NCBI GenBank assembly: GCA_013141075.1
Contig: JABFRQ010000001.1
Span: 478,554 to 542,553 of the forward strand
Direction: 5' to 3'
Length of the DNA stretch: 64,000 nt
DNA from: Methylotenera sp.
GTDB taxonomy: Bacteria > Pseudomonadota > Gammaproteobacteria > Burkholderiales > Methylophilaceae
How positions within the stretch are numbered: position 1 is the first letter of the stretch; every line of letters starts with the position of its first letter. The notes beneath the pieces were generated by a model that saw only the letters and a list, made by a program, of their open reading frames with translations, searched no databases and had not been told where the DNA came from. Shown piece by piece: positions 5,571 to 64,000 of this stretch. The translations under genes were made by a program, and so were the position numbers.

Positions 5571-5585
5571 ATTTTTGCAAACTTT

Positions 5586-6539: not shown

Positions 6540-6574
6540 ACTTTCTCCCACCATCATTCTTTATTAAAATCACT

Positions 6575-7554: not shown

Positions 7555-7569
7555 ATCTTTTTAGTGCAA

Positions 7570-7968: not shown

Positions 7969-8175
7969 CCTTGTAAAAAAATTATCCCCTGCTTCAAAAA
8001 CGCACTAACTTCATTATGGTTGACAGCCTAATACCACGGCTTTGCCAAGCTAATTATTCTCAACAATTTAATCTAAACATAAACCAATAAGCACCTTACG
8101 TTAAACCTTGATTTATGGAATAATTACACGCTTATAAAAGTAGTAAAATTTCTGAAAATACAAAGGCAAATCAGC

Positions 8176-9204: not shown

Positions 9205-9211
9205 AAAAATC

Positions 9212-9240
9212 TGTCGTTGCGAGCGAAGCGCGGCAATCTT
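9212..9240. repeat. Dispersed palindromic repeat copy 1 (half element)
   Basis: tgtcgttgcgagcgaagcgcggcaatctt between recA and recX matches one arm of the element at 27367. Confidence 0.85.
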
Positions 9241-9251
9241 AAACTATTGAA

Positions 9252-9740: not shown

Positions 9741-9785
9741 AAATGCATTAAATGCGTTTCTACAAAAAACATAATAACTGAAACT

Positions 9786-38000: not shown

Positions 38001-38210
38001 TGAATGTTCTAGTGGGGTAGTCACGGCCGCTGCTATGGTTTCTGGGCTCGCTCCTGGTAAAGATGCCGATACTTTAATGGTGGGAATATCCACACGCGGC
38101 ATCGGTGAAATTGATAGTAGACGCAAAGCCGCCAACCCCGCCAATACTAGGCCTATGGTCAGTAGCGTGGTGGCAACAGGTCGGCGAATAAAAGGTGCGC
38201 TGAAGTTCAT
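35085..38210 (-). CDS. mdtC: RND multidrug transporter, MdtC-like
   Basis: 1041 aa HAE1 RND; tandem with a second RND gene. Confidence 0.85.
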   Translation of the reverse strand: MNFSAPFIRRPVATTLLTIGLVLAGLAALRLLSISPMPRVDIPTIKVSASLPGASPETIAAAVTTPLEHSLGRIAGITEMTSSSALGATRIVLQFDLNRDINGAARDVQAALNAARSTLPPEMHSSPSYRKVNPSDAPVMILSLTSDTMTQGQMYDAASTVIAQKLSQLTGVGEVEIGGGSLPAVRVDLNPQTLNQYGIGFEEVRKAVAASNSNRPKGALDNGGEHWQISSNGQARSAAEYMPVFVKYSSGAAVQLADVANVTDAVQDIRTAGSSNGKPSVLVIIRRESDANILDTVNRVNKILPALNASIPAAVDLAVVMERTSTVRASMRDAGDTLIIAVVLVILVVMLFLRNGRAALIPSVAVPVSLIGTFAVMYLLDYSLNNLSLMALTIAVGFVVDDAIVVVENVSRHIEKGVAPLQAALIGAKEVGSTVLTMTLVLIAVFIPMLLMSGYVGLFVREFVVTLSVAILISLVVALTTAPMMCAQLLKTPVPNHQHGALYQWSERGFTAILRGYERSLKWALAHAPLTMLILLATVCLNAYLYVIIPKGFFPPQDTGQLTGRIQGDQSVSFQLMQKKLTDFVNIIRADPAVESAVGYTGGAQRNTASLFVTLKPLQERKETADKVVTRLRDTLANEPGATLGLTPVQDIRIGGRQSRSSYEYTIQADELDMLRTWEPRIRQAMAQLPELLDVDSDVQDKGLQTTLTIDRDAAARLGVNAKQIDTMLSNAFTQRLVSTIYQPLNQYQVVMGVAPEYAQSSDTLDQLQISNADGHQVPLSMLARQSQTETSLQVNHHSQLAATTISFNLAKGVSLSQATKAIDSALYKISVPSSVRGSFQGSAKAFKEMLANQPILILAAFLTLYIVLGVLYESLVHPITILSTLPSAGVGALLALMLFRTDFSVIAMIGIFMLIGIVMKNAIMMIDVALDKQRNEGATPAEAIFQACLLRFRPILMTSLAALLAAIPLALGSGDGAEMRQPLGIAIGGGLILSQLLTLYTTPVVYLYLDRFSTKIHSLRKHQPTNHAAQLMPVAVDTTL

Positions 38211-38220
38211 ACGCAGTAAT

Positions 38221-41200: not shown

Positions 41201-41331
41201 GTAGGGTAATCGAACTTAGGTAACGCCGACACTGGCAATAAGCGATAAGCAAATAAGCCTGCGAGTAAAATAGCCACCATCAGTAGCGATGTCGCCACTG
41301 GACGAAAAATGAACAGGCGCGAAAAGTTCAT
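38221..41331 (-). CDS. mdtB: RND multidrug transporter, MdtB-like
   Basis: 1036 aa HAE1 RND ([38 protein letters not shown]). Confidence 0.85.
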
Positions 41332-41338
41332 GGGCTAC

Positions 41339-42694
41339 TTACGTGGTAGAACGCATGCTGAGTTGTCGCGACCACTTTAGCGAACCTTGCGCACTTGATT
41401 GCTTCACTTTTGATTGCTTCGCTTTGGCTTGCCTATTACGGCTCTTTTTACCGCTACGCGCCTCTTTTGCCGAGACCGCCAATGGCGCATCTCGTACGGT
41501 GACTTCAACTTTAGCACCATCACGCAGCCTATCAGCGCCATCAACCACCACCAGTGCACCTATGGCGACGCCAGTGTTGGTTGCAGTAGTTTCGCCTTGC
41601 ACCGACACAACTTTCACAGGCGTGACTGAAACTGTATTATCGTCTTTAACCACATACACAAATGCGCCTGCCGCGCCGCGCTGAATTGCCGCAGACGGCA
41701 CTAGCGTGGCATTAGACAGCGTCTCAAGTGACATTCTCACATTCACAAACTGGTTAGCAAAAAGCGACCCATTGGCATTGGGAAACTCCGCCTTAATTTT
41801 AATTGTCCCTGTTGCGGCGTCTATTTGGTTGTCAGTCGCCAATAGCCAGCCCTTGCCGAGCTTCTCTTGCTGTGCGCGATCATAAGCATCAACAGGCACG
41901 CGACCACCCGCACTAAGTTGCTTCATCACGCGCGGTAATGCATCTTCTGGCGCGGTGAATACAACGCCTACAGGCTGTAATTGCGTGATGACCACAATGC
42001 CGTTAGCATCTGTCGCACGCACCATATTACCAGGGCCCACTTGACGCAAGCCAACACGACCACTGATTGGCGCAATCACATCGGTATGCTTAAGTTGTAG
42101 CTTTGCATTATCAATACTACCTTGGTCAGCCAGCACTGCGCCCTTGTGTTGACGCACCAAAGACTCTTGCGTATCAACCACTTGACGAGAAATTGAATCT
42201 TGTGTGAGAAGCGTTTTATAACGCTCTAAATCTGCCTGCGCATTATCAAGCAATGCTTGGTCACGCGCCAATTGCCCATTAGCTAGCGTGAGCTGCACCT
42301 CAAATGGGCGCGGGTCAATTTTAGCCAACAAATCACCCGCATTGACCATTTGCCCCTCTTTAAAGGCAATGCTCATGACTTGACCATCAACAAAACTATG
42401 CACCACCACAGTATTGAGCGGTGTTACGGTGCCCAGCGCAAAAAGATTAACATCTATACTACCCTGACGCACCGCAGTCACCACAACTGGAATCGCGGGC
42501 TGCGTAGCGGCCTCCCCACTAGTTGACGTAGCTGAAGCAGCTGGCTTGCTAGAATTGTTGCACGCAGTTAATCCGCCAAACACCACTAAGCCAAGCATTG
42601 CAACAATCAGCATTTGACGCCCTAACAACCGACGCCCAGATATTTGGGTAAACTCACCTAAAAGTGAGTTAGCATAGTTAGAAATTGGTGTCAT
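41339..42694 (-). CDS. mdtA: RND periplasmic adaptor, MdtA-like
   Basis: 451 aa MFP: LGTVTPLNTVVVHSFVDGQVMSIAFKEGQMVNAGDLLAKIDPRPFEVQL. Confidence 0.88.
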   Translation of the reverse strand: MTPISNYANSLLGEFTQISGRRLLGRQMLIVAMLGLVVFGGLTACNNSSKPAASATSTSGEAATQPAIPVVVTAVRQGSIDVNLFALGTVTPLNTVVVHSFVDGQVMSIAFKEGQMVNAGDLLAKIDPRPFEVQLTLANGQLARDQALLDNAQADLERYKTLLTQDSISRQVVDTQESLVRQHKGAVLADQGSIDNAKLQLKHTDVIAPISGRVGLRQVGPGNMVRATDANGIVVITQLQPVGVVFTAPEDALPRVMKQLSAGGRVPVDAYDRAQQEKLGKGWLLATDNQIDAATGTIKIKAEFPNANGSLFANQFVNVRMSLETLSNATLVPSAAIQRGAAGAFVYVVKDDNTVSVTPVKVVSVQGETTATNTGVAIGALVVVDGADRLRDGAKVEVTVRDAPLAVSAKEARSGKKSRNRQAKAKQSKVKQSSAQGSLKWSRQLSMRSTT

Positions 42695-43002
42695 GAGTCG
42701 CTACCGTCATATAAGGTGGGGTTGTATTGTGGGCGATAAATTTATTATTATTTTAGTGATTACACTATAAATTTGTGTGTAAATTATAGTTCAAAAATAT
42801 CACATTAAGGGTTAATTTTTTTAATGATAAGGCGGGGGAAATTATGACCGCCGATTTAATGAGCTAGACTCGATTTTGTGGACGGGGCATACGTTTCATG
42901 GAAACTCTGAACAAGTTGATAAAACATCATCAACGTGCCACCCATAAAATCGGATCCAGCACAGCTTACCGCTACGACACAGCTACGGTAGGCCACAATG
43001 AA

Positions 43003-43030
43003 AAAAGGCTCACATCACTGTGAGCCTTTT
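43003..43030. terminator. Bidirectional terminator-like hairpin
   Basis: AAAAGGCTCACA-tcac-TGTGAGCCTTTT. Confidence 0.75.
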
Positions 43031-43036
43031 ATATAT

Positions 43037-43084
43037 TGGTAGGGCGTGCGGGGATCGAACCCACGACAAACGGATTAAAAGTCC
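43037..43084 (-). other. 3' fragment of tRNA-Lys(TTT), probable att site
   Basis: Reverse strand GGACTTTTAATCCGTTTGTCGTGGGTTCGATCCCCGCACGCCCTACCA = anticodon arm, T-arm, 3' acceptor and CCA; no 5' half. Confidence 0.82.
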
Positions 43085-46883: not shown

Positions 46884-46969
46884 TCATGCGTCAATTAACA
46901 AACCTACACTTGTTTCAAGTGCTAATTCGGCAGGCTGAACTAGCGGTTCACCTTGCCAAGCATCAAATA
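46884..46969 (-). pseudogene. C-terminal remnant of a gene cut by the transposon left end
   Basis: Open frame LFDAWQGEPLVQPAELALETSVGLLIDA* running out of IR-L. Confidence 0.5.
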
Positions 46970-47007
46970 GGGGCGAACGCAGAAAACGGAAAAAATTGTA
47001 CGTTAAG
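46970..47007 (+). repeat. Tn3-family IR-L
   Basis: GGGGCGAACGCAGAAAACGGAAAAAATTGTACGTTAAG. Confidence 0.95.
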
Positions 47008-47023
47008 CTAAATTCATCACACT

Positions 47024-47578
47024 TTATCGGTTTTTTGCTAACAAGCGTACAACCGTTGACGGATGTACCTGAAATAACCGAGCAGCATCAGCACCTGTTT
47101 TTTGGCCAGACGTTACGAACGTGATAATTTCTTTCTGTTGTTGTGGCGTAAGTTTAGGTCGCCGCCCACCTATTCGACCTTCTTGTCGTGCAGCCTCTAA
47201 TCCATTCTTAGTACGTTCGCGCAACATGGCGCGCTCAAACTCAGCAAATGAACCGACGATTTGCATCATCATGCGGCCAGCAGGTGTGGATGTATCAATC
47301 GCCTCAGTCAGACTTTGAAAATCAGCACCTGCTTCTTCGATCTTTTCAAGAGTCAGTAGCAAATCTTTAAGTGATCGTGATAGCCGATCTAATTTCCAAA
47401 CAGCAACTACATCGCCTTTGCGTAACTGCCCTAACAGTCGATGCAATTCTGGTCGATCCCAGCGACCACCAGAAGCCTTCTCTTGAAAGATCAATTCACA
47501 CCCATTTTCTTTGAGTGCTGTGATTTGTAATTGATTGTCTTGTTCCTGAGTAGAAACACGTGCATAACCGATGCGCAT
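47024..47578 (-). CDS. tnpR: Serine resolvase TnpR
   Basis: 184 aa, MRIGYARVSTQEQDNQLQITALKENGCELIFQEKASGGRWDRPEL. Confidence 0.95.
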   Translation of the reverse strand: MRIGYARVSTQEQDNQLQITALKENGCELIFQEKASGGRWDRPELHRLLGQLRKGDVVAVWKLDRLSRSLKDLLLTLEKIEEAGADFQSLTEAIDTSTPAGRMMMQIVGSFAEFERAMLRERTKNGLEAARQEGRIGGRRPKLTPQQQKEIITFVTSGQKTGADAARLFQVHPSTVVRLLAKNR

Positions 47579-47611
47579 AGTTGCGAATTCCTATTGCCAT
47601 TTGTTTCTATT

Positions 47612-47692
47612 TTGCAATACATTTATGCAATGCGCAAGTCCTTGTTTTATGTGAAGCGAATTTTGATTGCGCAAATGAACGTTTGTGCAATC
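47612..47692. promoter_or_regulatory. Candidate res site upstream of tnpR
   Basis: Dyad GATTGCGCAAATGAACGTTTGTGCAATC at 47665-47692 plus related tttgcaatacatttatgcaatgcgcaa just before it. Confidence 0.5.
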
Positions 47693-47716
47693 TTCATAAA
47701 ACACCTAACCAACAAA

Positions 47717-48628
47717 TCAAAGCAATTTAATTCCAGCCAAACTATTCGCGCAGACTTCTTTAATAATTCGTAATAAATCTTGCGCATAGGGTTTTGTCAT
47801 CATGTCTTGTGTACCTGTCGCATACAGTTCAGACCATAATCCCTTTGTGCCAATTGGTTTCGCAATCACATATTCATGATCTACATAGCTTTGAATGCCC
47901 CAACTTGGCAACGCTGCGACACCACGGCGACTTGCAACGAGTTGCATAATGGCAACTGTAAGTTCTGCTGCGCGCCTTTCAAACACAATGTTGGCTGGTT
48001 TAAGTACGTTGCGGATGATGTCGATGCGTTCTTCAGGAACGGGATAAGTAATCAACGTTTCATTACTAAAATCTTCCGCTAAAAACCGTGCTTTATTGCG
48101 CTTGCTGTGATCTGGCGGCAAAACGGCCATTATTTCAAATTTGAATAATGGCTGATGTTGTAAGTCACGTACTTTTTCAGGTAAGCCGCCGATCACTAGA
48201 TCCGCCTTGCATTCATTTAATAGCCACCAAGGGTCGCTATGGAAACCTGCCACCAAATCAATTTCAACCTCTGGCCAAGCACGCCGAAAGGCATCCATTA
48301 CAGGCGTTAGCCAGTCAAAACAGGTGTGGCACTCTAAAACAATTCTAAGCTCACCTGATTGATCACTTTTCAAGCGAATTAAGTCGCGCTCAGATTTTTC
48401 AATGAGTGGTAATAACTCATTAGCCAAATCTAGCAGTCGTTGCCCTGCTGTGGTAAAGCGCAAGCCCTGCGCATTGCGCTTAAATAGAGTTATTTCATAG
48501 TGCGTTTCTAATGCACGTATTTGATGAGACAGTGCTGATTGCGTTAGAAAGACACGTTCGGCAGCTAAGCCAAGCTTACCCGTTTCAGCAATGGCTTTGA
48601 GTGATTTTAGATGGCGAATTTCGATCAT
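47717..48628 (-). CDS. metR: LysR-family regulator MetR
   Basis: 303 aa, MIEIRHLKSLKAIAETGKLGLAAERVFLTQSALSHQIRALE...LECHTCFDWLTPVMDAF; divergent from metE. Confidence 0.9.
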   Translation of the reverse strand: MIEIRHLKSLKAIAETGKLGLAAERVFLTQSALSHQIRALETHYEITLFKRNAQGLRFTTAGQRLLDLANELLPLIEKSERDLIRLKSDQSGELRIVLECHTCFDWLTPVMDAFRRAWPEVEIDLVAGFHSDPWWLLNECKADLVIGGLPEKVRDLQHQPLFKFEIMAVLPPDHSKRNKARFLAEDFSNETLITYPVPEERIDIIRNVLKPANIVFERRAAELTVAIMQLVASRRGVAALPSWGIQSYVDHEYVIAKPIGTKGLWSELYATGTQDMMTKPYAQDLLRIIKEVCANSLAGIKLL

Positions 48629-48653
48629 TGTTTATAGGCTTTATTAAGCAATA

Positions 48654-48666
48654 TGAATTTAATTCA
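48654..48666. promoter_or_regulatory. Candidate MetR box
   Basis: TGAATTTAATTCA, perfect TGAA-N5-TTCA palindrome in the metR-metE divergent region. Confidence 0.65.
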
Positions 48667-48747
48667 AATTTATCACAAAAACTTTCGCTTTATTAAATTA
48701 TTTTATCGTCACAAAATGCACGCCTTACCTTGAGATGAGAATAGAAA

Positions 48748-51051
48748 ATGGCACAACAACCAATAAAAGCCCACATTTTAGGTTACCCTCGTGTGGGCGA
48801 AAAACGTGAGCTAAAATTTGCACAAGAATCTTTTTGGCGTGGTGAGTCTTCACCAGACTATTTACAGAAAACAGCACATACCTTACGTGCTGAGCATTGG
48901 AAAAAGCAACAGGCGGCTGGCCTGAGCTTTATTACCAGTAACGATTTTTCTTTATACGATCACGTGCTGGATCACACGGTGTTGTTTGGTGCATCACCTA
49001 AGCGTTTTGGCAAAACACCTTTCGGTGCAAAAAACATTTCGCCAGAAAATACTTACTTCTCGCTTGCACGTGGCAATATTGAGCAACCTGCAATGGAAAT
49101 GACTAAGTGGCTAGACACTAACTATCACTACATCGTACCTGAACTCAATGCCGACACACAGTTCTCGATTAACGCGCATGATTACCTGACACAACTAGAT
49201 GAAGCACAAAAAATTAGCTCGAATGTGAAACCCGTATTACTAGGGCCTGTGAGCTTTTTGTATTTGAGTAAAGCGCGTGACATTAATAAATTGGACTTAT
49301 TAGATAGTTTGGTTCAGCAGTATGTGTATTTACTGCAAGAGCTTCATGCCAGAAAAATTGAATGGCTACAAATTGATGAGCCAATTTTGGCATTGGACTT
49401 AGACGATGTTTGGTTAAAAGCCTTTGAACGTGCTTATGCCTGGTTTAGAACATCGCGCCCGAAACTATTGCTGACCACATATTTTGCTAATGTTTCACGC
49501 TATCAGTCTTTCATTTCCCGCTTGCCTGTAGATGGTATTCATATTGACTTAGTACGCGCACCAGAACAATTAGGGCCATGGGTCAATGCAATCCCTAGTC
49601 ATTGGGTGTTATCGGCTGGGGTGATTGATGGCCGTAATATTTGGCGCAATGATCTAGACAAAACATTGGCGCTGCTAGAACCATGGGTGCGAAGGTTAGG
49701 AGAGCGTTTGTGGGTAGCCCCTAGTTGCTCATTACTACATACGCCAGTCACATTAGCACACGAAGTTAAACTGGATGCCGAAATTAAGTCTTGGTTAGCT
49801 TTTGCCGACGAGAAGTTGGTCGAGCTTAGCGTGATTACAAAAGCTTTGAATCATGGCGTTGAGTCGGTAGCGGATGAGTTAGCGATTTCACGCGCTGCGA
49901 TTGCTTCACGCAACAATTCTGGTCGAGTTCATTCAACCAGTGTTAAGGCACGAATTGCACTATTAGTTACAGTTAATGAAAATAGGCGCAGTCCTTTTTC
50001 TGTGCGGCAAGAAAAACAAAAAGCATGTTTAAATTTACCGCTATTGCCCACCACAACCATAGGTTCTTTCCCACAAACACCTGATATTCGCGCGAGCCGT
50101 GCCGCATTAAAAAAAGGTGCTATTAGTCAACAAAAATATGATGCCGATATGGAGTCACATATTGAGTATGCAATTCGAGAACAAGAAACATTAGGCCTAG
50201 ATGTACTTGTGCATGGTGAAGCCGAGCGCAATGATATGGTGGAGTTCTTCGGGGAGCAATTAGCAGGTTATGCGTTTACCGAAAATGGCTGGGTACAAAG
50301 CTATGGCTCACGCTGCGTAAAACCGCCTGTGATTTACGGCGATGTATATAGGCCACAGCCCATGACGGTAGCCACAGCACAATTTGCACAATCACTTTCT
50401 AAAAAACCAGTGAAAGGCATGCTGACAGGTCCGATTACGATATTGCAATGGTCGTTTGTGCGTGATGATCAATCTCGTGAAACTACGGCAATGCAATTGG
50501 CATTAGCCATACGCGATGAAGTGGATGATTTGCAAAAAGCAGGTATTGCCATTATTCAAATAGATGAACCAGCATTGCGTGAAGGTTTGCCATTGCAAAA
50601 ATCTGCTTGGACTCAATATCTGGCTTGGGCGGTACGTGCATTTAAACTGAGCGCCAGCGTGGCAAACGATGATACGCAGATACACACCCATATGTGTTAC
50701 GCAGAGTTCAACGATATTCTACCAGCCATTGCAGCGATGGATGCAGATGTCATTACCATTGAAACCTCACGTTCAGCTATGGAATTACTAGATGCTTTCG
50801 GCGAATTCTCATACCCGAATGAAATAGGACCAGGTGTTTATGATATTCACTCGCCACGCGTGCCAACGGTTGAGGCTATGGAAAAACTGGTGAGGCGTGC
50901 AACAGAGGTTATTCCAGTTGAGCGGCTTTGGATTAACCCTGATTGTGGTCTAAAAACCCGTGGTTGGGATGAAACAAAACAAGCGCTAGAGAATATGGTC
51001 ACAGTGGCAAAGCATCTGAGAAAACAATTTGCTTCAACACCACAAGAGTAA
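48748..51051 (+). CDS. metE: Cobalamin-independent methionine synthase
   Basis: 767 aa, full MetE (HILGYPRVGEKRELKFAQESFW; TTTIGSFPQTPDIRASRAALKKG; CGLKTRGW). Confidence 0.97.
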   Translation: MAQQPIKAHILGYPRVGEKRELKFAQESFWRGESSPDYLQKTAHTLRAEHWKKQQAAGLSFITSNDFSLYDHVLDHTVLFGASPKRFGKTPFGAKNISPENTYFSLARGNIEQPAMEMTKWLDTNYHYIVPELNADTQFSINAHDYLTQLDEAQKISSNVKPVLLGPVSFLYLSKARDINKLDLLDSLVQQYVYLLQELHARKIEWLQIDEPILALDLDDVWLKAFERAYAWFRTSRPKLLLTTYFANVSRYQSFISRLPVDGIHIDLVRAPEQLGPWVNAIPSHWVLSAGVIDGRNIWRNDLDKTLALLEPWVRRLGERLWVAPSCSLLHTPVTLAHEVKLDAEIKSWLAFADEKLVELSVITKALNHGVESVADELAISRAAIASRNNSGRVHSTSVKARIALLVTVNENRRSPFSVRQEKQKACLNLPLLPTTTIGSFPQTPDIRASRAALKKGAISQQKYDADMESHIEYAIREQETLGLDVLVHGEAERNDMVEFFGEQLAGYAFTENGWVQSYGSRCVKPPVIYGDVYRPQPMTVATAQFAQSLSKKPVKGMLTGPITILQWSFVRDDQSRETTAMQLALAIRDEVDDLQKAGIAIIQIDEPALREGLPLQKSAWTQYLAWAVRAFKLSASVANDDTQIHTHMCYAEFNDILPAIAAMDADVITIETSRSAMELLDAFGEFSYPNEIGPGVYDIHSPRVPTVEAMEKLVRRATEVIPVERLWINPDCGLKTRGWDETKQALENMVTVAKHLRKQFASTPQE

Positions 51052-51164
51052 AACATGACAAAGCATATATAGTCATTTATTTTCAATATTTATCTATATA
51101 TTGTGTTTTTAGTATTGAATTACCCAGCCATATTGCGTTATAGTGCGCATCTACGGTTCTCAAT

Positions 51165-51450
51165 ATTTAATCAAAGATTGAGATAAAAGGGAATACGGTG
51201 CAAGGTTTTTACGATAAATGCCTTAATGCCGAAGCTGCCCCCGCAACTGTAATTAGCGAGTTATTTGTTTAAATGAATTTGCCACTGAATTTGATGTAAC
51301 GAAATTTGGGAAGGCCAACAAATAATGATGACCTGAAAGCCAGGAGACCTGCCGTAGACATGTTTCACCTATTTTTTGATAAGTGAATGTATTTATATAA
51401 CGTTTGAGGCGGGGTGTCCTCGGCAGATGGAGTATGTACCTAGTGTACAG
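51165..51450 (+). ncRNA. Cobalamin riboswitch (boundaries approximate)
   Basis: AAAAGGGAATACGGTGCAAGG ... GCTGCCCCCGCAACTGTAA ... B12 box AAGCCAGGAGACCTGCC ... gaggcggggtgtcctcggcagatgg. Confidence 0.93.
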
Positions 51451-51524
51451 CTTCGCCATGCTGGTTTTTGTTAGGCAAATTTTTTCATATTTTATGAATA
51501 TAGTTTTCCAATAAAAAGAGTCCT

Positions 51525-51542
51525 GCCCTTTAAAATAAAGGG
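51525..51542 (+). promoter_or_regulatory. Candidate riboswitch expression platform sequestering the nrdA SD
   Basis: CCCTTTA-aaa-TAAAGGG hairpin; its right arm overlaps AAAGGGAGC upstream of the ATG at 51552. Confidence 0.55.
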
Positions 51543-51551
51543 AGCTTTAAA

Positions 51552-54389
51552 ATGGATGATGTAACTTCATCAAGTATTAGGACATCTAATACTGACGCAC
51601 TAAGTGCTGAATCAGCACTATCAACACCTACACTACAAGTCATTCGTCGCAATGGCGCGGTGGTTGCTTATCACCTAGATAAAATTTCGGTAGCTATTAC
51701 CAAAGCCTTTTTAGCTGTAGAAGGCAACCATAGTGCGGCTTCGCAACGCGTGCGCGATCAAGTGGCTATCTTGAGCCAGCTTGTAAATAATGCCTTAATG
51801 CGCCGTTTGCCTACTGGTGGCGCAATCCATATTGAAGATATTCAAGATCAAGTAGAACTCGCGCTGATGCGTAACGGCAATCACGATGTGGCACGTGCTT
51901 ATGTGCTTTACCGTGAAAAGCGTAATGCCGAACGTGCGGCTGAAAAAGCCAGTCACCCAACCTCAGAACCTAGTCATGTGCTTAATGTAAATATTGATGG
52001 AAAGTTGACTCCACTCGATATTAAGCAACTCAATGATATGGTCGGTGAAGCTTGTTTAAATTTAGGCAATGTTGTTAATCCAAACCTAGTGGTTGAGCAA
52101 GCAGTGCGAGATTTGTATGATGGAATTCCATTTACAGAGGTGTACAAAGCGTTGATTTTGTCCGCCCGTAGCCTGATTGAAACTGAACCTGCCTACAATT
52201 ATGTCACAGCACGTTTGCAGTTGGATTTGGTACGTGCAGAAGTGCTAGGCGAGCGCGTGAGCCATGCCGAGATGGATGCGCATTACACCGATTATTTTCC
52301 GCGTTACATCAAAATTGGCATTGATGCTGGCTTGTTAGACTCCCGTTTAGCGCAGTTTGATTTAGCTCAATTAGCCGCTGCGTTGGTTAAAGAGCGTGAC
52401 TTTCAGTTTGCTTATTTAGGCATCCAAACGCTCTATGATCGATATTTTTTGCACATCGAAGAGCGCCGTATTGAGTTACCGCAAATCTTTTTTATGCGTG
52501 TGGCCATGGGTTTGGCGATGAATGAGATTGATCGTGAAGCGCGTGCCATTGAGTTCTACAACGTATTGAGTACGTTTGATTTTATGAGTTCTACGCCAAC
52601 GCTGTTTAATGCTGGCACCTTACATTCGCAGTTATCAAGTTGCTACTTAACTACCGTGAACGATGATTTAGACAGCATCTATCAAGGTATTAAAGAAAAT
52701 GCTTTATTGCAAAAATACGCAGGCGGTCTGGGTAATGACTGGACACCCGTGCGTTCATTAGGCGCACGCATCAAAGGCACGAACGGCAAAAGCCAAGGTG
52801 TGATTCCGTTCTTAAAAGTGGTGAACGATACGGCTGTGGCTGTAAACCAAGGCGGTAAACGTAAAGGTGCGGTGTGCGGCTATTTAGAAACTTGGCATTT
52901 AGACATTGAAGAGTTTTTAGATTTGCGCAAAAACACAGGTGATGACCGCCGACGCACGCATGACATGAATACTGCGCATTGGATTCCTGATTTATTCATG
53001 CGTCGCGTGACTGAAAACGGCGACTGGACATTATTTTCCCCATCAGATGTACCTGATTTACATGATAAGTACGGCAAAGCCTTTGAAACCGCTTATGTTG
53101 AATATGAGCGCCGTGCTGAAAATGGTGAAATCAAACTGTTTAAGAAAATCCCAGCCCTGCAAATGTGGCGCAAGATGCTTTCTATGCTGTTTGAAACAGG
53201 TCATCCGTGGATTACCTTTAAAGACCCATGCAACATTCGCTCGCCACAGCAACATGTGGGCGTGGTACATAGCTCAAACCTATGTACGGAAATTACACTG
53301 AATACTTCAGACACTGAAATTGCCGTATGCAATCTAGGTTCTGTGAATTTATTGCAGCATTTAAAAGAAGTAAATGGAAAATTAGCACTAGATAACGACA
53401 AGTTGCAAGCCACTATCAAAGTAGGCATGCGTATGCTGGATAATGTGGTGGACATTAACTTCTACCCAGTAGGTAAAGCACGCAATGCGAATACACGTCA
53501 CCGTCCAGTGGGCATGGGCATTATGGGCTTTCAAAATTGCTTACATGCGATGCGGATTCCGTATGCAAGTATGGAAGCTGTCGAGTTTGCTGACCGTGCC
53601 ATGGAAATGGTGTGTTACAACGCTTACTATGCTTCTACTGTGTTGGCAGAAGAGCGCGGCGCGTATTCAAGCTTTAAAGGTAGCTTATGGGATCAGGGTA
53701 TTTTACCACTCGATACACTTGATTTGTTATTGAGCGAGCGTGGCGGTAATGTGGATGTCGATAGAAGCCAAACACTCGATTGGGAAGCATTACGCAAGCG
53801 CATTCAAACAGTGGGTATGCGTAACTCCAACTGTGTAGCGATTGCACCAACGGCCACTATTTCTAATATTGTGGGCGTTTCTGCCAGCATTGAACCTGAA
53901 TACCAAAACCTATATGTGAAATCCAACCTATCAGGCGAATTTACTATTGTGAATGAGCAACTGGTGAGTGATCTCAAGGCGCGTGGCCTGTGGGATGCTG
54001 TCATGGTGTCTGACTTGAAATACTTTGATGGCTCATTAGCGCCGATAGAACGCGTACCCGCTGACTTGAAACAACTCTACGCCACTGCTTTTGATGTTGA
54101 TCCAACTTGGTTAATTGAAGCGGCTGCACGCCGCCAAAAATGGATAGACCAAGCGCAATCACTTAACCTGTACTTTGCAGTGCCTTCTGGCAAGAAGTTA
54201 AATGACACTTATATGCTCGCTTGGCAACGCGGCTTAAAAACCACGTATTACTTACGCTCACTGGGCGCAACTGCGGCTGAGAAATCGACGGGCACAGGCG
54301 GTGAACTCAATGCGGTTTCAGCGCATGTATCAGAGCCAGCACCAAAAATGTGTTCCATTGATAACCCAGAGTGCGAATCTTGCCAGTAA
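51552..54389 (+). CDS. nrdA: Class Ia ribonucleotide reductase alpha subunit
   Basis: 945 aa, N-terminal ATP-cone-like region, SSTPTLFNAGT, SSCYL, NLCTEI, C-terminal ECESCQ. Confidence 0.96.
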   Translation: MDDVTSSSIRTSNTDALSAESALSTPTLQVIRRNGAVVAYHLDKISVAITKAFLAVEGNHSAASQRVRDQVAILSQLVNNALMRRLPTGGAIHIEDIQDQVELALMRNGNHDVARAYVLYREKRNAERAAEKASHPTSEPSHVLNVNIDGKLTPLDIKQLNDMVGEACLNLGNVVNPNLVVEQAVRDLYDGIPFTEVYKALILSARSLIETEPAYNYVTARLQLDLVRAEVLGERVSHAEMDAHYTDYFPRYIKIGIDAGLLDSRLAQFDLAQLAAALVKERDFQFAYLGIQTLYDRYFLHIEERRIELPQIFFMRVAMGLAMNEIDREARAIEFYNVLSTFDFMSSTPTLFNAGTLHSQLSSCYLTTVNDDLDSIYQGIKENALLQKYAGGLGNDWTPVRSLGARIKGTNGKSQGVIPFLKVVNDTAVAVNQGGKRKGAVCGYLETWHLDIEEFLDLRKNTGDDRRRTHDMNTAHWIPDLFMRRVTENGDWTLFSPSDVPDLHDKYGKAFETAYVEYERRAENGEIKLFKKIPALQMWRKMLSMLFETGHPWITFKDPCNIRSPQQHVGVVHSSNLCTEITLNTSDTEIAVCNLGSVNLLQHLKEVNGKLALDNDKLQATIKVGMRMLDNVVDINFYPVGKARNANTRHRPVGMGIMGFQNCLHAMRIPYASMEAVEFADRAMEMVCYNAYYASTVLAEERGAYSSFKGSLWDQGILPLDTLDLLLSERGGNVDVDRSQTLDWEALRKRIQTVGMRNSNCVAIAPTATISNIVGVSASIEPEYQNLYVKSNLSGEFTIVNEQLVSDLKARGLWDAVMVSDLKYFDGSLAPIERVPADLKQLYATAFDVDPTWLIEAAARRQKWIDQAQSLNLYFAVPSGKKLNDTYMLAWQRGLKTTYYLRSLGATAAEKSTGTGGELNAVSAHVSEPAPKMCSIDNPECESCQ

Positions 54390-54422
54390 CTAAAAAATAA
54401 TCAAAAAGATTAAGGAAAAAAC

Positions 54423-55559
54423 ATGCTTTCATTTGAAGATGATGTTGTCGTTACACCAAATAAATCAGAACCACGCCCTAACTTAAAGGCGGTGACTGAA
54501 TTGCCTACTAAACCGACTGCCGCCAATCAGCCATCACATTCAGGCCGCGTCAATGCCTCGGATAAGCGCATGATTAACGGCCAAACCGATGTGAATCAAC
54601 TCGTGCCTTTTAAGTATCATTGGGCGTGGGATAAGTACTTGGCAGGTTGCGCTAACCATTGGATGCCGCAAGAAGTCTCCATGAGCCGTGATATTGCACA
54701 GTGGAAAGACAGCACCGCCCTCACTGACGATGAGCGCTTAATCATAAAACGTAACCTTGGTTTTTTTACCACCGCTGATTCACTTGCGGCGAACAATATC
54801 GTGCTTGGCACATATCGCCATATTACTGCGCCTGAATGTCGTCAATACTTGCTGCGCCAAGGTTTTGAAGAGGCAATTCATACCCATGCTTACCAATATA
54901 TTGTAGAAAGTTTGGGGCTGGATGAAAGTGAAATATTTAATGCTTACCAAGAAGTGCCTAGCATTAAAGCCAAAGATGATTTTTTAATTCCATTCATCAA
55001 TACGCTCACTGACCCGACGTTTAAAACAGGCACGCCAGAAGCCGATCAGCAACTTCTACGCTCACTCATCGTATTTGCTTGCATCATGGAAGGTTTGTTT
55101 TTCTATGTAGGTTTTGTGCAAATTTTAGCCCTCGGCCGCCAAAATAAAATGCAAGGCGCAGCCGAGCAGTATCAATATATTCTGCGCGATGAATCCATGC
55201 ACTGTAATTTTGGGATTGATGTGATTAACACCATCAAACTAGAAAACCCGCATTTATGGACAGTAGAATTCAGAGATGAAATCAAAGCACTCATGCAGCA
55301 CGGCGTAGAGTTGGAATACCAATATGCTGAAGCCACCATGCCGCGCGGGGTGTTAGGGCTAAACGCAACGATGTTTAAGGAATATTTGCGCTTTATTGCC
55401 AACCGTCGTTGTCAGCAAATTGGTTTAGATGTGTTGTATCCAAATGCGAATAATCCGTTCCCTTGGATGAGCGAAATGATGGACTTAAAGAAAGAGAAAA
55501 ACTTCTTTGAAACACGTGTCACTGAATATCAAACGGGCGGTGCTTTAAGTTGGGAGTGA
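54423..55559 (+). CDS. nrdB: Class I ribonucleotide reductase beta subunit
   Basis: 378 aa, R2 fold with [16 protein letters not shown] and [11 protein letters not shown]. Confidence 0.96.
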
Positions 55560-55618
55560 AACGAGAATTGTAAATGACACTTCAATTTAAACTATAACTA
55601 TAGAGTGGGTAGCTGAAT

Positions 55619-58588
55619 ATGTCTCGTCGTTCTATACTTTCCGTTTCAGAGCGTGATAGCTTACTAGTGATTCCAGAAAATCAGGATGATTTAATTCGCT
55701 ACTACACCTTTAATGAGTCTGATTTATCATTGATTCGGCAACGACGTGGTGATGCCAATCGACTTGGTTTTGCCGTACAGCTTTGTCTGCTGCGCTATCC
55801 TGGATATGGTCTGGCCAATGATATGGTAGCCACCAAACCAGTAATACAATGGGCTGCCAGCCAAACCAAGACAGACGCAAGCACATGGGATAAATATGGT
55901 GAGCGCGATGAAACGCGGCGAGAACATCTTCAGGAATTGCGCGCTTACCTCAAGCTATCCCCATTTAGCCTGTCTGATTTTCGTTTTCTGTTGCACGATT
56001 TGATTGATCTTGCCATGCAGACCGACAAGGGGCTTGTACTCGCAGCGCATGCATTGGAAACGCTTCGCCATCGGCAGGTTATGTTACCAGCACTTACTGT
56101 GATTGATCGAGCCTGTGCAGAAGCCATTACACATGCTAATCGACGCATTTATCGTACATTAATTGAACCACTGACTGAGCAGCATAAGTGTAGGCTAGAT
56201 GATTTACTGAAGCGCAAACCAAATAACAGCACCACTTGGCTGATCTGGTTACGCCAGTCACCACTGAAACCAAATTCGCGGCATATGCTTGAACATATCG
56301 AACGACTAAAAGCATTCCAAAAGTTGGATTTGCCTGAAGGGATTGGTCGCTATATTCATCAAAACCGCCTGCTGAAGTTAGCACGCGAAGGTGGTCAGAT
56401 GACACCGCAAGACCTGAGCAAGTTTGAGAAAGAGCGACGTTATGCCACGTTGGTCGCGCTGGCCTTGGAAGGAATGGCAACAGTAACGGATGAACTGGTT
56501 GATTTACATGATCGCATTCTGGTTAAGCTATTTAGTACAGCCAAAAACAAACATCAGCAACAATTCCAAAAACAAGGCAAGGTAATCAACGATAAAGTCA
56601 GGCTATATTCAAAAATCGGCCTTGCCTTGGTTAAGGCGAAGCAATCGGGCAGCGATCCCTATGCAGCCATTGAGTCGGTCATTCCATGGGATGATTTCAC
56701 GCAGAGCGTCACCGAAGCCGAGCAACTCGCTCAGCCAGAATCGTTTGATCACCTGCACTTGGTCGGTGAACAATTTAATATGTTGCGCCGATACACACCA
56801 GAGTTTTTAGGGGTACTCAAGTTACGTGCGGCACCAGCAGCAAAGAGCGTATTAGATGCTATTGAGGTGTTGCGTGGAATGAATACCGACAGCGCACGTA
56901 AAGTACCAGAAAATGCACCAACAGATTTTATCAAAACACGCTGGAAACCACTTGTGCTGACGGATGATGGTATCGACCGTCGTTACTATGAAATTTGCGT
57001 ATTGTCAGAACTGAAAAATGCACTTCGTTCAGGCGACATATGGGTAGAAGGCTCCCGCCAGTTTAAAGACTTTGATGAATATCTGTTACCTATGGATAAA
57101 TTCAGTGAGCTCAAACAGGCAAAGGAATTACCAATTGCTATCAATCCAGACTGTGACCAATATCTGCATGATCGGCTAACCCTATTAGAACAACAGCTGG
57201 CTACAGTCAACAGGCTGGCTCTGGCCAATGAACTGCCTGATGCAATATTCACAGACTCTGGATTGAAGATCACACCACTGGATGCCGCTGTACCAGAAGC
57301 AGCACAATTCCTTATTGACCAAACAGGCATGCTATTGCCGCGCGTCAAAATTACCGAACTTTTAATGGACGTTGATGACTGGACTGGCTTCACACGACAT
57401 TTCGTGCACTTAAAGGGTGGTGAGCCTGTCAAAGATAGGACGTTATTACTGTCAGCCATACTTGCCGATGCGATTAACCTAGGCTTAACCAAAATGGCTG
57501 AATCTAGTCCTGGAACGACTTACGCAAAACTGTCATGGCTCCAAGCATGGCACATTCGTGATGAAACCTATTCGACTGGGCTGGCAGATATAGTCAATGC
57601 GCAGTTTGGACAGTCTTTTGCCGCTAACTGGGGTGATGGCACAACATCATCGTCAGATGGACAGCGCTTCCGAGCAGGCAGTAAAGCCGAAAGTAGCGGT
57701 CATATCAACCCAAAATATGGCAGTGAACCTGGCAGATTATTTTACACTCACATTTCTGACCAGTATGCGCCGTTCAGTACCAAGTTGGTCAATGTGGGTG
57801 TACGCGATTCAACCTATGTGCTTGATGGGTTGCTATATCATGAATCTGATTTGCGAGTTGAAGAGCATTATACTGACACTGCAGGTTTTACCGATCATGT
57901 ATTTGGTTTGATGCATCTTCTAGGCTTTAGGTTTGCGCCACGCATTCGCGATCTGAAGGATACCAAACTGTATATCATAAAAAACAAACAGGATTATCCA
58001 GCACTGGATACCATGATCGGTGGCACCCTGAACATCAAGCACATTCGTACGCATTGGGATGAGATTTTACGTCTAGCCACTTCAATCAAACAGGGGACTG
58101 TCACTGCCTCACTGATGATACGCAAACTCGGCAGTTACCCGCGTCAGAACGGCCTAGCTATAGCTCTACGTGAGTTGGGCCGCATCGAACGCACGCTGTT
58201 TATTCTGGACTGGTTACAAAGTGTTGAATTGCGCAGACGTGTTCATGCTGGATTAAACAAAGGTGAAGCACGCAACGCTTTAGCCAGAGCTGTATTCTTT
58301 AACCGCCTTGGTGAAATTCGCGACCGAAGCTTTGAACAGCAACGTTACCGAGCCAGTGGTCTAAATTTGGTGACAGCCGCTATCGTATTGTGGAATACCG
58401 TGTATCTAGATCTAGCAACGCAAACCATGCGCGAGGCAGGTAACAAAGCGTTCGATGACGCCTTATTACAGTACCTATCGCCATTAGGTTGGGAGCATAT
58501 CAACCTGACTGGTGATTATGTTTGGCGGCAAAATCGCAAAGTAGAAGATGGTAAATTTAGACCGTTACGCAACGCAGAAAAGTCTTAG
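55619..58588 (+). CDS. tnpA: Tn3-family transposase TnpA
   Basis: 989-aa Tn3-family transposase, apparently intact; 3' end overlaps IR-R. Confidence 0.96.
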
Positions 58589-58621
58589 CGTACAATTTTC
58601 TCCGTTTTCTGCGTTCGCCCC
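58584..58621 (-). repeat. Tn3-family IR-R
   Basis: Reverse complement GGGGCGAACGCAGAAAACGGAGAAAATTGTACGCTAAG, 36/38 match to IR-L. Confidence 0.95.
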
Positions 58622-58763
58622 TACTTTGTGTTCTATCTTGACCTTGGATAAATCGTTTCATATTTAAATAAAAACAATGTAATCAGATGGTTAAATTATA
58701 CAATATCTACATTAATGTGTTTATTTCAGATTAAATTTATTGGGGTTTTGACACAGGCTCGGC
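58622..58763 (-). mobile_element. 5' remnant of an IS1182-like element (end + first ~13 codons of transposase)
   Basis: Minus-strand ATG at 58659-58661 reads MKRFIQGQDRTQS then runs into IR-R; upstream terminus-like ggggttttgacacaggctc. Confidence 0.6.
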
Positions 58764-58928
58764 CCAAAGGAGACACTGGTCTCTGTTGACAAAAAGGCAA
58801 AACTCTTCAAAATTAAAGTTCACTAATGCACTTTTTTCGTCACAAAATCATCAATTGTCAGAAATAGATAATAAATGGTACTCACCATTTTATTTAGTCG
58901 TGCATTGACTTGAGTTAATATTATTAAC

Positions 58929-59102
58929 ATGAAGTTAATTTCACTAAGCTTACCGCACAAAATCTCTATATCCGTTCTGGCCTTAATTTTCTTTGGTCTT
59001 GGACCATTAGTTATTTATACCACTAATACTCTTAAATCAAATCTTCAATCGCTGCTTACTTCACAACAAGTTAGCTCATTAAACTTTAAATTAATATCTT
59101 AG
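58929..59102 (+). pseudogene. Truncated N-terminus of a membrane sensor (histidine-kinase-like)
   Basis: 57 aa MKLISLSLPHKISISVLALIFFGLGPLVIYTTNTLKSNLQSLLTSQQVSSLNFKLIS: one TM plus start of a periplasmic sensor, then stop inside the converging gene. Confidence 0.5.
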
Positions 59103-59729
59103 TAAATCGATATCTGATTGTATTTGACTTTTAGCTAATTTTCTTTGTAATGTTCGCCTGTGCAAATTGAGTGCACGTGCAGTAGCAGAAATGTTACCTT
59201 TTTGCTCTTGTAAAATGCGCTGGATATGTTCCCATTCCATACGGTCAACTGAGAGAGGGTTAGTAGAAACCGCAACCTCAGTATTGCCCGATTGCTTTTC
59301 GAAGGCACGTACAATCTCATCAGCATCTACAGGTTTAGCTAGATAATGCGTTGCACCTAATTTAATGGCCTCCACAGCTGTAGCGACGCTTGCATAACCT
59401 GTTAGCATGACAATGCGTGTACCTGCGTTAAGGCTTGCCAATTGTCTAACCAAAACTAAGCCAGAGTTACCAGACATTTTTAAATCTATTACCGCCAATT
59501 CTGGTGGATTGTTTTTAGCAAGTTCAAAAGCACTTTCTGCACTATTAGCCAATGAAACCAAGAACCCACGTTTACGCATGGCTGGTGCAAGGGCATTTAG
59601 AAAATCTTTGTCGTCATCAACCAATAACAAGCTAGGTTTTTCATCGCAGTTATTTTCAACTGTATTCATAGTACTCATTTGGAAATTCGCAAATTTTTTA
59701 AGTAGCAAATAGATAATATAGGTAGACAC
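59091..59729 (-). CDS. RegA/PrrA/ActR-type response regulator
   Basis: 212-aa ORF: LLVDDDKDFLNALAPAMRKRGF, Fis-type HTH NISATARALNLHRRTLQRKLAK; likely starts at MSTMNTVENN. Confidence 0.88.
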   Translation of the reverse strand: MSTYIIYLLLKKFANFQMSTMNTVENNCDEKPSLLLVDDDKDFLNALAPAMRKRGFLVSLANSAESAFELAKNNPPELAVIDLKMSGNSGLVLVRQLASLNAGTRIVMLTGYASVATAVEAIKLGATHYLAKPVDADEIVRAFEKQSGNTEVAVSTNPLSVDRMEWEHIQRILQEQKGNISATARALNLHRRTLQRKLAKSQIQSDIDLLRY

Positions 59730-59781
59730 TTCTTGCGTTCCGCCAGCACCAGCGAAACACCCATAGTCCCCTAAAACATAT

Positions 59782-61881
59782 CTACCACCGACCCTCTAAT
59801 GTAACCATTAAACTGCGATACCCGTTTTCTTCAGTATTAAGTTTCCAATCATTAACACCTGAAGTAAAAGTATTTTGATTGCGAGTGTCCGCTGCCAGCA
59901 GATTTTGACCTGCCACGCGCAAATTATATTTTGGGTTAATTTTATAGAGCCAAAAAGCGTCTATCAGCGCGCGAGATTCATTGTAGGCATGTTGTTCATT
60001 GGGAATGTTAGTATTGCTGCGCCCAGAAAGCTGCAATGAAACACCATAACTAGATTGCAATTTAGGCAGGCTTTGATCTAAACCCATTGAAAAAATATAG
60101 CGCGGCGTATCACGCGCCATGCGCTGTATGCCAAGTCGCACATCATCAACTTCAGCACGTGGTAAAGTGAGGTGCGATTTTATAGTAGCGCCTGTCCAGC
60201 CAAAATTATCCATGCGCACTTTACCGTCTAGCTCAACACCGTAATGCAAAGCATCGCCTTCGTTATAGGGTCTGTCCACCCAGCGCACGCCTTCTTGCTG
60301 CACGCGACGCTCTGTAAAGTTGCTAGTTGAACGCACATAAACATTTACACCGATCACGCCTGCCTTTTCTGGCAAATAATGCTCGGCGACTGCTTCAAAA
60401 TTCACGCTACGTTCAGGTTTTAAATCTGGATTTCCGCGTTTATCAGCTTCTGTAGGTGTGTTGACTACAATACTACGTACCGTGGCATTGCTAATTTCAT
60501 TTAATTTTGGCATTTTCATGCCAGCACCTAACGATGTGCGCATGACCCATTGTTCAGTAGGTTGCCAGCGTACTGCAATAGATGGCAATAATGCAGCTTG
60601 GCGTTGTGAAACCGTATCAGCCTCTAAGCGCATATTTTCAAAGCGCAAACCTGTAGTGAGCGTTACTTTATCTTCTGGCGTCCAATCATCTTGTATCCAA
60701 AGAATTTCATCGCGAGAAGAAGCTGAATAGTCACCTTGCTGTGCAAATCCACCTTGGTACACTTGCGCATCGTCGCGCATGACTTTAACGTACTCTGCGC
60801 CAACTGAAACCAAATGCTCACCAAATGGTTTGTCTAGACGCATTGCCGAATTAAACTCTCTATCATGACTGTTGGTCGTTTCGTTATTGGTGCTTAGCAC
60901 ACCAAACGCATCGCGCGAGTTGCGAACCAAATCAGAAGTTCGGCGGCCATCAGTAAACGCCGTGCGCGCAGTCAATTTGGTGTCTGCAAAGTGCTTTTCG
61001 CCCTCTACACGTAAACGTAGCGTTCTGCTAAAACCATCTTCAGAAGTATCTCTATCACCGTTGTAAGTTAATGTTGGGCTTGTAGCTGGGTTAGCCGCAC
61101 TTAACATGGTGGTGCTCTTGCGATCTACTGGGCCAAAAAAAATCATCGGCGATAATGTCAAGCTATCTTGACCTGATTTCCAAGTCAGCTTAGGTGAAAA
61201 TGCATGATGACCTAATTTAGTTTTGCCGTTTGTTTGCTCTTGCTCCCACAAGGTAGGGTCACCAGCTACAGAATCTTGTTTATTTAAGCGATTTTCAAAA
61301 GGAGAATTATTAAAAATTAAGCTTATAGGTAAAGACCAGCCAAAATTACCAGCGCCGCCATTTTCAGTCCAAGATAATAGCTCACCCACTTGGTCACCAC
61401 GCAAGCCCAGCCCTGCTCTAACCTCAGTGGAGCGCTTAGGAATCGCCTTTTTCATCACCAAATTCACGGTAATGGCAGAGGCTCCGCCATACTCAGCCGA
61501 CGAACCGCGCAAGATTTCTACACGCTCAAGTTCGCCTGAAGGCAAGCGCCCCATTGCCCCCATCACCACTTGTGATGATTGACGTTCACCATCAATGAGA
61601 ATCTGTACAGAATCGCGAGACATGCCACGCGCTCTTTGACTATCGCCTTTTATTTCAACTCCAGGAAGCTTACCCAACACATCACCTACCGTCATTACGC
61701 TCATGTTATCAATCTCTTTACGATCAATAATCACTTTTTGCGTGGCAGCATCACGGCGCATTGATAAATCATTGCGCTCACCCGTTACGGTAATTGTATC
61801 GAGTTTAATGGCTGTTTCTTCAGCGTTCACCAAAGTGACTGTTGAAACAAATAAACATACACCTAACAAATATTTCATCAA
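59782..61881 (-). CDS. TonB-dependent receptor
   Basis: 699 aa, signal peptide, plug domain (DTITVTGERNDLSMRRDAATQKVIIDRKEIDNM), beta-barrel, C-terminal aromatic. Confidence 0.92.
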   Translation of the reverse strand: MMKYLLGVCLFVSTVTLVNAEETAIKLDTITVTGERNDLSMRRDAATQKVIIDRKEIDNMSVMTVGDVLGKLPGVEIKGDSQRARGMSRDSVQILIDGERQSSQVVMGAMGRLPSGELERVEILRGSSAEYGGASAITVNLVMKKAIPKRSTEVRAGLGLRGDQVGELLSWTENGGAGNFGWSLPISLIFNNSPFENRLNKQDSVAGDPTLWEQEQTNGKTKLGHHAFSPKLTWKSGQDSLTLSPMIFFGPVDRKSTTMLSAANPATSPTLTYNGDRDTSEDGFSRTLRLRVEGEKHFADTKLTARTAFTDGRRTSDLVRNSRDAFGVLSTNNETTNSHDREFNSAMRLDKPFGEHLVSVGAEYVKVMRDDAQVYQGGFAQQGDYSASSRDEILWIQDDWTPEDKVTLTTGLRFENMRLEADTVSQRQAALLPSIAVRWQPTEQWVMRTSLGAGMKMPKLNEISNATVRSIVVNTPTEADKRGNPDLKPERSVNFEAVAEHYLPEKAGVIGVNVYVRSTSNFTERRVQQEGVRWVDRPYNEGDALHYGVELDGKVRMDNFGWTGATIKSHLTLPRAEVDDVRLGIQRMARDTPRYIFSMGLDQSLPKLQSSYGVSLQLSGRSNTNIPNEQHAYNESRALIDAFWLYKINPKYNLRVAGQNLLAADTRNQNTFTSGVNDWKLNTEENGYRSLMVTLEGRW

Positions 61882-61895
61882 TTACCCTTAAATTT

Positions 61896-64000
61896 TTAGC
61901 TTTGTTTCCGCCGTACAAAAATACCAGCCCCTAACAGCCCAGCAAATGTAAGCCATAACCAAGCAGGTGCGGCAGCCAGCAACTGCTGGCTTAAGTTATT
62001 TTTTTGCTCTTTCATTTCATAACCATCCACTTGCTGTACTTTATCCAATGGCTCAGGCTCGTTTTTTTTAGCCTTGTTAACTTGGCTATTTTGAGGCTTA
62101 GTGCTAGGTTTTCTTTGCTGTGATTGTGCTTTAACTTGACTTGCAGCGTTCATCTGCTTAGCAGTTTGCCCCATATTAGCTTGGTTACTGCTGGCCTGAT
62201 TTACCTGCACCTGAGCTGACTGTATACCAACAAGCGGAGCTGGTAATTTTACAGCAGCCTCACCTATTTTTCTATCTTGATCTTGGGCAAGTTTAGTAAT
62301 TGCAGCACTAGAGCAAGTATCCATATCGCACGCCACACCAGCTTCAGCAATGACTTCCATATTGGCTTTTTCTAATGTGGCTTTGGTCATTGCATCTGCC
62401 TTCCAATAGCCTTTGTTAATCGCGGTTAACATACGGTCTATCATACCTTGGTAAGCCAGCATGTTTTTTGAATCACGAAACTTTTGTTTAATATCTAAGC
62501 CATTTCTATCTGCCACATAGGTTTCATACATTTCTTGCCATTTGGCATCGCCCACTGCCTCTGGGGTAGTGACTTGCCAGCCCCATAAATTTTCAGTCAC
62601 CATGCCAACAAATCTTGCCCCTGCATAGCCTTCTTTCATCATAGATTTAATCCATTCAGGGTTTAGGTAACGCGTGCGCATTTCTGTGCCGATAAATTTT
62701 TCTAATGTTTCGTGTTTAGGGTTTTTAGGATTAGAGAAATTCGCCACCAGCACTTCCGCGTTAGTGCCATTCACCGAGCGTAACGCAATCGCCGAACCGC
62801 CTAAATACTGGTAAAAATCATCGTTATCCAGTGCCGCATAGGTATTCGTTGAGCGGCTATGAATAGTCGCCTTTACGTCAGTTAAAGCAAGTTTAAATAA
62901 ATCCACCCCTAGCGAGGCAGGTATTTCCTTACCCGCAATCGGCTGTCCATCTTTGCCACTCACATCTAGGCCGCCCCAAAAACCTTGCCCATAAGGATTA
63001 CCCATGCGATTCAAATACACATCGGCGATTTCTTTTTCCTCTTTCCAAGTGTTAGACATAGGAATAACTTTATTCAGATTTGTACCATACACCCCCGTAG
63101 GGTGGAAAATACCCGCACCCCAGCTAATCGCCCAGCTTGTTCTTCAGGCACACCTTTGGCAATTAAAGCAGCACGGGTTTTTGATAATTGACGGGAATCG
63201 GGTTATCTGCTTCTTTGCCTGAGCGCGCCACGGTGGCCGCATTATCGAGCAGTAGCATCACTGGCCCGAATTGGTCGCGATACATGCCAGAAGGCGTGAT
63301 TACAACATCGACACGCGGTCGACCCAACTCTTCACGGCTAATTAACTCTGCGCCTTTCACCATGCCGCGCTCATCCCAAACAGGCTTAACGCCCATTAAA
63401 TTCATGATCTCCGCTTCTAACATGCCTTCGTGACGATAACTTTCCACGCCCCATAACGTAAAGGTCAGCTTGTCTGGATACTTGCCATGACGTTTGAAAT
63501 AATCTTCCACCACACCTTTTGCCTGCTTTGCCCCTGCGGCGTAGGTAGCGGGTGTTGGTAAGCGCGTCGGGTCAAAACCAAACAGGTTGCGTCCTGTCGG
63601 CAAGGCATCAGGATTACGAATAGGATCATTACCACCACTTGCTGCAATATAACCACCATTGAGTCCGTTGATCAGCGCGTCTAATTCAGCATCGCCACTT
63701 CGCGCCAAGCGCGACATGTAATCTGCCTTTTTTGTAGCACGCTGCTCAGGGGATAGGGTGGTTTCAATACTGAGCATCGCTTCTGCTGTTGTGTCTTGTG
63801 CATGTTCGTTGGGCGAAACACCAAAGGTATGTAAACCGTAAGGGGCATTTGCCTCACCCACTTCTTTGAGGTGGTCTTCAATGTCATTCACTTGCTCGTT
63901 GGTGGTAATTTCAGTAAAACCTAAATCTTTCGCCACACCCAGTTTGTTGGCAGAAATTGACAAATCGCTCAGTATCGCAGCGGCAGCAGTCGGGCCTTTT
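61896..64000 (-). pseudogene. cobN: CobN-like chelatase with C-terminal TM anchor, disrupted by two frameshifts (partial at window end)
   Basis: Two ORFs (63163-63963+ and 61896-63092) are pieces of one CobN-like protein; the intervening conserved peptide SKTRAALIAKGVPEEQAGRLAGVR lies in a third frame. Confidence 0.78.

Follow-up and report, generated by a model that had tools for sequence, protein, structure and literature searches.

The window analyzed here is a 64,000-nucleotide stretch of Methylotenera sp. DNA (contig JABFRQ010000001.1), and its positions 46970 to 58621 form an 11.65-kb Tn3-family transposon whose cargo consists solely of metR-metE, a cobalamin riboswitch, and nrdAB. The element is bounded by 38-bp inverted repeats (IRL, 46970 to 47007, plus strand; IRR, 58584 to 58621, minus strand) with 2 mismatches between the ends, a match for which the chance expectation is none. 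Next to IRL lies tnpR (47024 to 47578, minus strand), an open reading frame for a 184-aa serine resolvase; its NCBIfam names, serine recombinases, all scored under the cut-off. At the other end, the open reading frame of tnpA (55619 to 58588, plus strand) encodes a 989-aa Tn3-family transposase, which scored 1240 bits against the NCBIfam Tn3 transposase model NF033527 (cut-off, 500) and aligns with the solved Tn4430 TnpA through the catalytic region, with the catalytic motifs intact. TnpA acts on the transposon ends, and TnpR acts at res. The res region is predicted, by position only and from relatives described in PMC7157771, to be the intergenic stretch upstream of tnpR (47579 to 47716). Terminal inverted repeats of about 38 to 40 bp belong to the definition of the Tn3 family given there (PMC7157771), and the element combines 38-bp terminal repeats with a DDE transposase and a serine resolvase gene. 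The original prediction, which had described matched 38-bp repeats, tnpR, and an intact tnpA bracketing a cargo devoid of resistance and catabolic genes, is borne out in both respects, as no such gene lies between the inverted repeats.

The cargo begins with metR (47717 to 48628, minus strand), an open reading frame for a LysR-type regulator; MetR is the top-scoring NCBIfam name for its protein (231 bits), yet below the cut-off. Divergent to it, metE (48748 to 51051, plus strand) is open over 767 codons and encodes a B12-independent methionine synthase (NCBIfam, 1151 bits, over cut-off; TIGR01371, 1072 bits versus a cut-off of 930) in which the zinc-site motifs HTHMC, E, and NPDC are conserved in an alignment with 1u1h. 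Two further open reading frames on the plus strand, nrdA (51552 to 54389; 945 aa) and nrdB (54423 to 55559; 378 aa), encode the alpha and beta subunits of a class I ribonucleotide reductase (NCBIfam, 1685 and 686 bits, both over cut-off). The cysteines of NrdA are conserved in an alignment with a solved structure, and the radical position of NrdB (HTHAY) holds a tyrosine instead of the phenylalanine seen in the nearest solved chain (HTHTF). On these models and the NrdB tyrosine, NrdAB is probably a class Ia enzyme. MetE is the B12-independent counterpart of MetH, as is class Ia NrdAB of class II NrdJ; NrdAB needs oxygen.

The cobalamin riboswitch (51137 to 51370, plus strand) matches RF00174 over the full model with 117.5 bits (gathering score, 31.5). 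It is located between metE and nrdA and hence precedes nrdAB only, not metE. Cobalamin-bound riboswitches of this type lower the expression of the downstream genes, which here would be nrdAB, while metE would be driven by MetR together with homocysteine. Because an intrinsic terminator was looked for 3′ of the aptamer and not found, control of nrdAB may act on translation. The fold of positions 51340 to 51570 is moderately stable (z, −2.2).

The arrangement of the element is that of TnSod9, a Shewanella transposon of the Tn21 subgroup with the order <tnpR <T <A tnpA>; 38-bp GGGG...TAAG ends, a DDE TnpA, a serine TnpR facing away, and passengers in between are common to that subgroup (PMC7157771) and the element. 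The passengers differ: in the Tn21 subgroup they are toxin-antitoxin, mercury resistance, or antibiotic resistance genes, whereas here they form a complete cluster of primary metabolism. Three related elements (L066, L070, and L122) have the same tnpR-passengers-tnpA layout and similar ends, and carry HEPN/MNT-like genes by inspection. One of them (L122; G036 C1:538000-557999, positions 4591 to 11049) is a Tn3-family element with toxin-antitoxin-like cargo in a complete genome. The best plasmid matches to tnpA at the nucleotide level are labeled TnAs1 and cover only part of the gene, at about 71% identity. No plasmid record spans the greater part of the element, and among 80 loci of related tnpA genes the same cargo was found only on a contig of the Methylotenera genome G030. 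Known Tn3-family passengers comprise resistance, virulence, and catabolic genes (PMC7157771), and no published transposon with such cargo was found in literature searches, judged by titles and abstract openings. The expectation that no Tn3 element of this kind had been described agrees with these searches and with the plasmid records: the transposon family and each of the genes were already known, and what appears new is the combination of this cargo on a transposon.

Similar gene clusters exist without a transposon. A metR-metE-nrdAB cluster lacking tnpA is present in eight other Methylotenera genomes and in one other member of the family, and the cobalamin riboswitch was found in 7 of 7 such clusters tested. 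Genes, order, orientation, and riboswitch are as in the element, so that a gene order peculiar to the transposon was rejected. Since the cluster occurs in the genus without transposon ends, the element appears to have mobilized a pre-existing module. The flanks of the clusters are common to sister species (G036/G050 and G012/G027/G002) and mostly not to others. The original prediction had named as its refutation a cluster without transposon ends at this very locus in relatives; end-less clusters do occur in relatives, but they occupy other loci. Cluster divergence (metR-metE-nrdA-nrdB) tracks that of the housekeeping genes recA-alaS-lysC, with identities of 91.8/91.7% for G027-G012, 89.0/90.7% for G036-G050, and 77.0/78.9% for G010-G050, which argues for vertical inheritance. 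In this, in the lack of transposon ends, and in loci that differ between clades, the chromosomal clusters are unlike the element. Two other genomes (G051 and G013) have a different metE (56 to 57% identical), located apart from their nrdAB, and metE has therefore been gained or kept more than once in the genus.

The cargo of the element behaves differently. Between the host, G000, and G030 it is 88.9% identical, whereas recA-alaS-lysC is 75.7% identical, and this excess argues for horizontal movement. The three element copies (the window copy A, a second host copy B, and that of G030) form one clade with a support of 1.0. Their cargo is nearest to the G027/G012/G002 clade (78.7 to 79.8% identity), to which the housekeeping identity of the host is 81.0 to 81.6%; because the two values are close, the cargo was likely captured from this side of the genus. 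Among the three copies, cargo dN/dS ranges from 0.019 to 0.072 and internal stops are absent, which indicates that purifying selection kept the genes. Synonymous distances of 0.17 to 0.89 argue against a recent burst of copies, and with values of up to about 0.9 the spread is not recent. Between copies A and B these distances are uneven (tnpA, 0.17; metR, 0.22; tnpR, 0.60; nrdA, 0.64), which suggests that the copies are mosaic.

Copy B resides on contig C1 of the host genome (2.48 Mb in 11 contigs, 90% complete) and is 91 to 92% identical to the window copy. Its order is IRL-tnpR, 13 kb of other genes, metR through nrdAB, and then a shortened tnpA, with some 74 bp from the 3′ end of metR present on each side of the 13 kb. 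The intervening genes encode two TonB receptors, PepSY, ExbB-like, DUF2149, and CobN-like proteins, a response regulator, and an FAD oxidoreductase; the CobN-like and TonB proteins hit several NCBIfam models, in every case below the cut-off. Control of the 13 kb by B12 was considered and rejected, as the sole cobalamin riboswitch in the surrounding 40 kb is the nrdAB one. Copy B is bounded by a tRNA gene with an adjacent integrase and by direct repeats of the 3′ end of that tRNA, located at distances of 50 and 80 kb. The tRNA-linked island (G000 C1:442951-493000, covering L007, L008, L009, and L151; tRNA 3′-end repeats at 492904 and 522475) encodes an integrase, TrbL/VirB6, a T4SS protein, a NikA/MobC-like protein, an LPD7 protein, and Wadjet JetA/JetD. 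A cluster in the order TonB receptor-CobN-like-DUF2149-ExbB-like-PepSY-TonB receptor adjoins both copies (L008, G000 C1:464270-477454; window, 59087 to 64000), and the right flank of the window copy repeats part of the 13 kb of copy B with 98.3% identity over 4.9 kb.

To the left of the window copy is a 51-bp stretch identical to the 3′ part of tRNA-Lys(TTT) (43034 to 43084, minus strand), likely the edge of the island holding this copy; both host copies are in island-like regions. An attachment site for the tRNA of the copy B island was sought in the window and not found, the window fragment being tRNA-Lys. An 8.3-kb efflux-pump region (34751 to 43060) that ends at the tRNA-Lys fragment is duplicated at G000 C1:708634-716955 with 94.5% identity.

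A 5-bp target duplication is a hallmark of the Tn3 family. It is absent from the window copy, whose outer 5-mers are AAATA on the left and TACTT on the right, and joining the flanks restores no long open reading frame. The left flank (46909 to 46969) corresponds to part of a gene that G039 has in full (C6:7081-7141), and the right flank (58622 to 58775) to the 5′ end of an insertion-sequence transposase gene present intact in G036, G032, G033, and G022; both target genes in relatives match the flanks of the window copy right up to the element border. Because the duplication is absent and the flanks stem from two different targets, the window copy is either rearranged or misjoined with its flanks in the assembly; recombination between two inserted copies would give this pattern, as would a misjoin. 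Under a misassembly, the left flank of one near-identical copy, in an antitoxin-like gene, would have been joined to the right flank of another, in an insertion sequence, so that the element would be real and the locus wrong. The missing duplication, the two different genes intact in relatives, the lack of a restored frame, and the end of the contig 5.4 kb to the right, within sequence repeated on C1, all speak for it. However, it requires an extra near-identical copy, which is absent from the 11 contigs (the sole other copy differs by 8 to 9%), and the same pattern is expected from recombination between inserted copies or from resolvase activity at two res sites; we regard misassembly as rather unlikely.

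Whichever holds for the window copy, insertions of the element elsewhere indicate that it moved as a unit. The search for other insertions that had been proposed was fruitful: in G030, each of two contigs holds one end of the element, AATCG directly adjoins the element on both, and fusing the flanks around a single AATCG yields a 440-aa frame without interruption, umuC by inspection. In G038, at a different locus, TTATT and TTATA (one mismatch) adjoin the two ends, and removal of one of these 5-mers restores a 398-aa frame matching DUF1800. These two cases thus have the 5-bp duplication, with one mismatch in G038, unlike the window copy, and record past insertions in two other Methylotenera species. 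Partial copies or ends exist in G024, G006, and G039; one locus (L115, G039 C46) has end remnants at 9942 to 10154 and 17311 to 17374, separated by about 7 kb of other DNA. G030, G038, G024, and G006 are fragmented assemblies; the cargo is visible on both sides of the assembly gap in G030 only, and only its metR end in G038. A native metR-metE-nrdAB cluster might instead have acquired a tnpR half and a tnpA half in independent insertions and never moved as a block, a notion to which the chromosomal occurrence of the cluster in the genus and the solo or partial ends in G006 and G039 lend some appeal. Yet G030 shows the same order elsewhere, bounded by the duplication in umuC, the two ends in G038, metR-tnpR and tnpA, bound a restorable gene, and tnpA as well as the cargo shows excess similarity between species. 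Separate insertions are thereby largely refuted and very improbable, and the fear that unrelated tnpR and tnpA ends had been joined gives way to a single mobile unit.

The benefit of such a unit depends on how the organism uses B12. The host has metH (C1:270068) and nrdJ (C1:313538), no cobJ/cbiH over cut-off, and two metE copies, both on transposon sequence. Among 52 genomes of the genus, metH is present in 47 and the nrdJ model matched in 50 (45 over cut-off), while cobJ/cbiH exceeds the cut-off in G021 alone; weaker matches presumably represent CysG. Matches to metE occur in 14 of the 52, of which 11 are full length, that of G030 is partial to the contig end, and two are short fragments. 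With metH and nrdJ near-universal and cobJ/cbiH almost absent, the genus looks like B12 salvagers that use MetH and NrdJ. The suggested check of the host for metH, nrdJ, and cob genes therefore agrees with the claim that the cargo substitutes for two B12-dependent functions: it duplicates both in a probable B12 scavenger. Given MetH, NrdJ, and possible B12 salvage in the host, any benefit would be conditional. The cargo could have been kept for gene dosage, oxygen-dependent dNTP supply, or methionine for the community, with B12 control a leftover; the presence of metH and nrdJ, the position of metE outside riboswitch control, and the oxygen requirement of class I versus class II enzymes fit this idea. 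Against it, both cargo enzymes replace B12-dependent ones and one is B12 sensed, cobJ/cbiH is absent almost genus-wide, and metE and nrdAB are alike under purifying selection; we consider it improbable.

A captured B12-bypass cluster on an autonomous mobile Tn3-family transposon that has spread between species is the best explanation, and a likely one. Sequence comparison supports the structure, past insertion in two species, spread between species, and purifying selection on the cargo. Of the mobile B12-bypass module originally predicted, mobility and cargo stand, while the cluster is not transposon specific and the window copy is rearranged or misjoined. In the proposed scheme, an autonomous replicative transposon resembling the Tn21 subgroup would have captured a complete chromosomal metR-metE-riboswitch-nrdAB cluster from a Methylotenera lineage, between the divergent tnpR and tnpA, the slot held by toxin-antitoxin-like genes in relatives. 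TnpA, acting on the 38-bp ends, would have moved the unit by paste-and-copy, and TnpR would have resolved the cointegrates by acting at res. In a recipient, the element-borne MetE and class I NrdAB would duplicate B12-dependent MetH and class II NrdJ; nrdAB would be made at low cobalamin via the riboswitch, with metE under MetR, and a B12-scavenging recipient would gain methionine and deoxynucleotide synthesis without the vitamin. Enzyme activity, the riboswitch response, present-day transposition, a fitness benefit, and growth without B12 are predictions of this scheme.

Caulobacter is, according to PMC6538847, a B12 nonproducer with metH, a patchy metE, and a riboswitch-controlled B12-independent function. 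The patchiness of metE is ascribed there to loss, and PMC8123684 likewise ascribes patchy metE to gene loss; in Methylotenera, a transposon appears also to have brought in metE, along with nrdAB. In this element, the capacities for methionine synthesis and ribonucleotide reduction without B12 move jointly, accompanied by a B12 sensor; core metabolism joins the passenger repertoire of the Tn3 family, and the gain of vitamin independence by transposition becomes directly testable. Tentatively, and as a nearly even call, B12 independence might be a transmissible trait in Methylotenera, in which a transposon borne on tRNA-linked islands would turn an obligate into a facultative scavenger in one step and be kept or lost with the B12 supply. 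Escape from B12 dependence may thus be a transferable trait.
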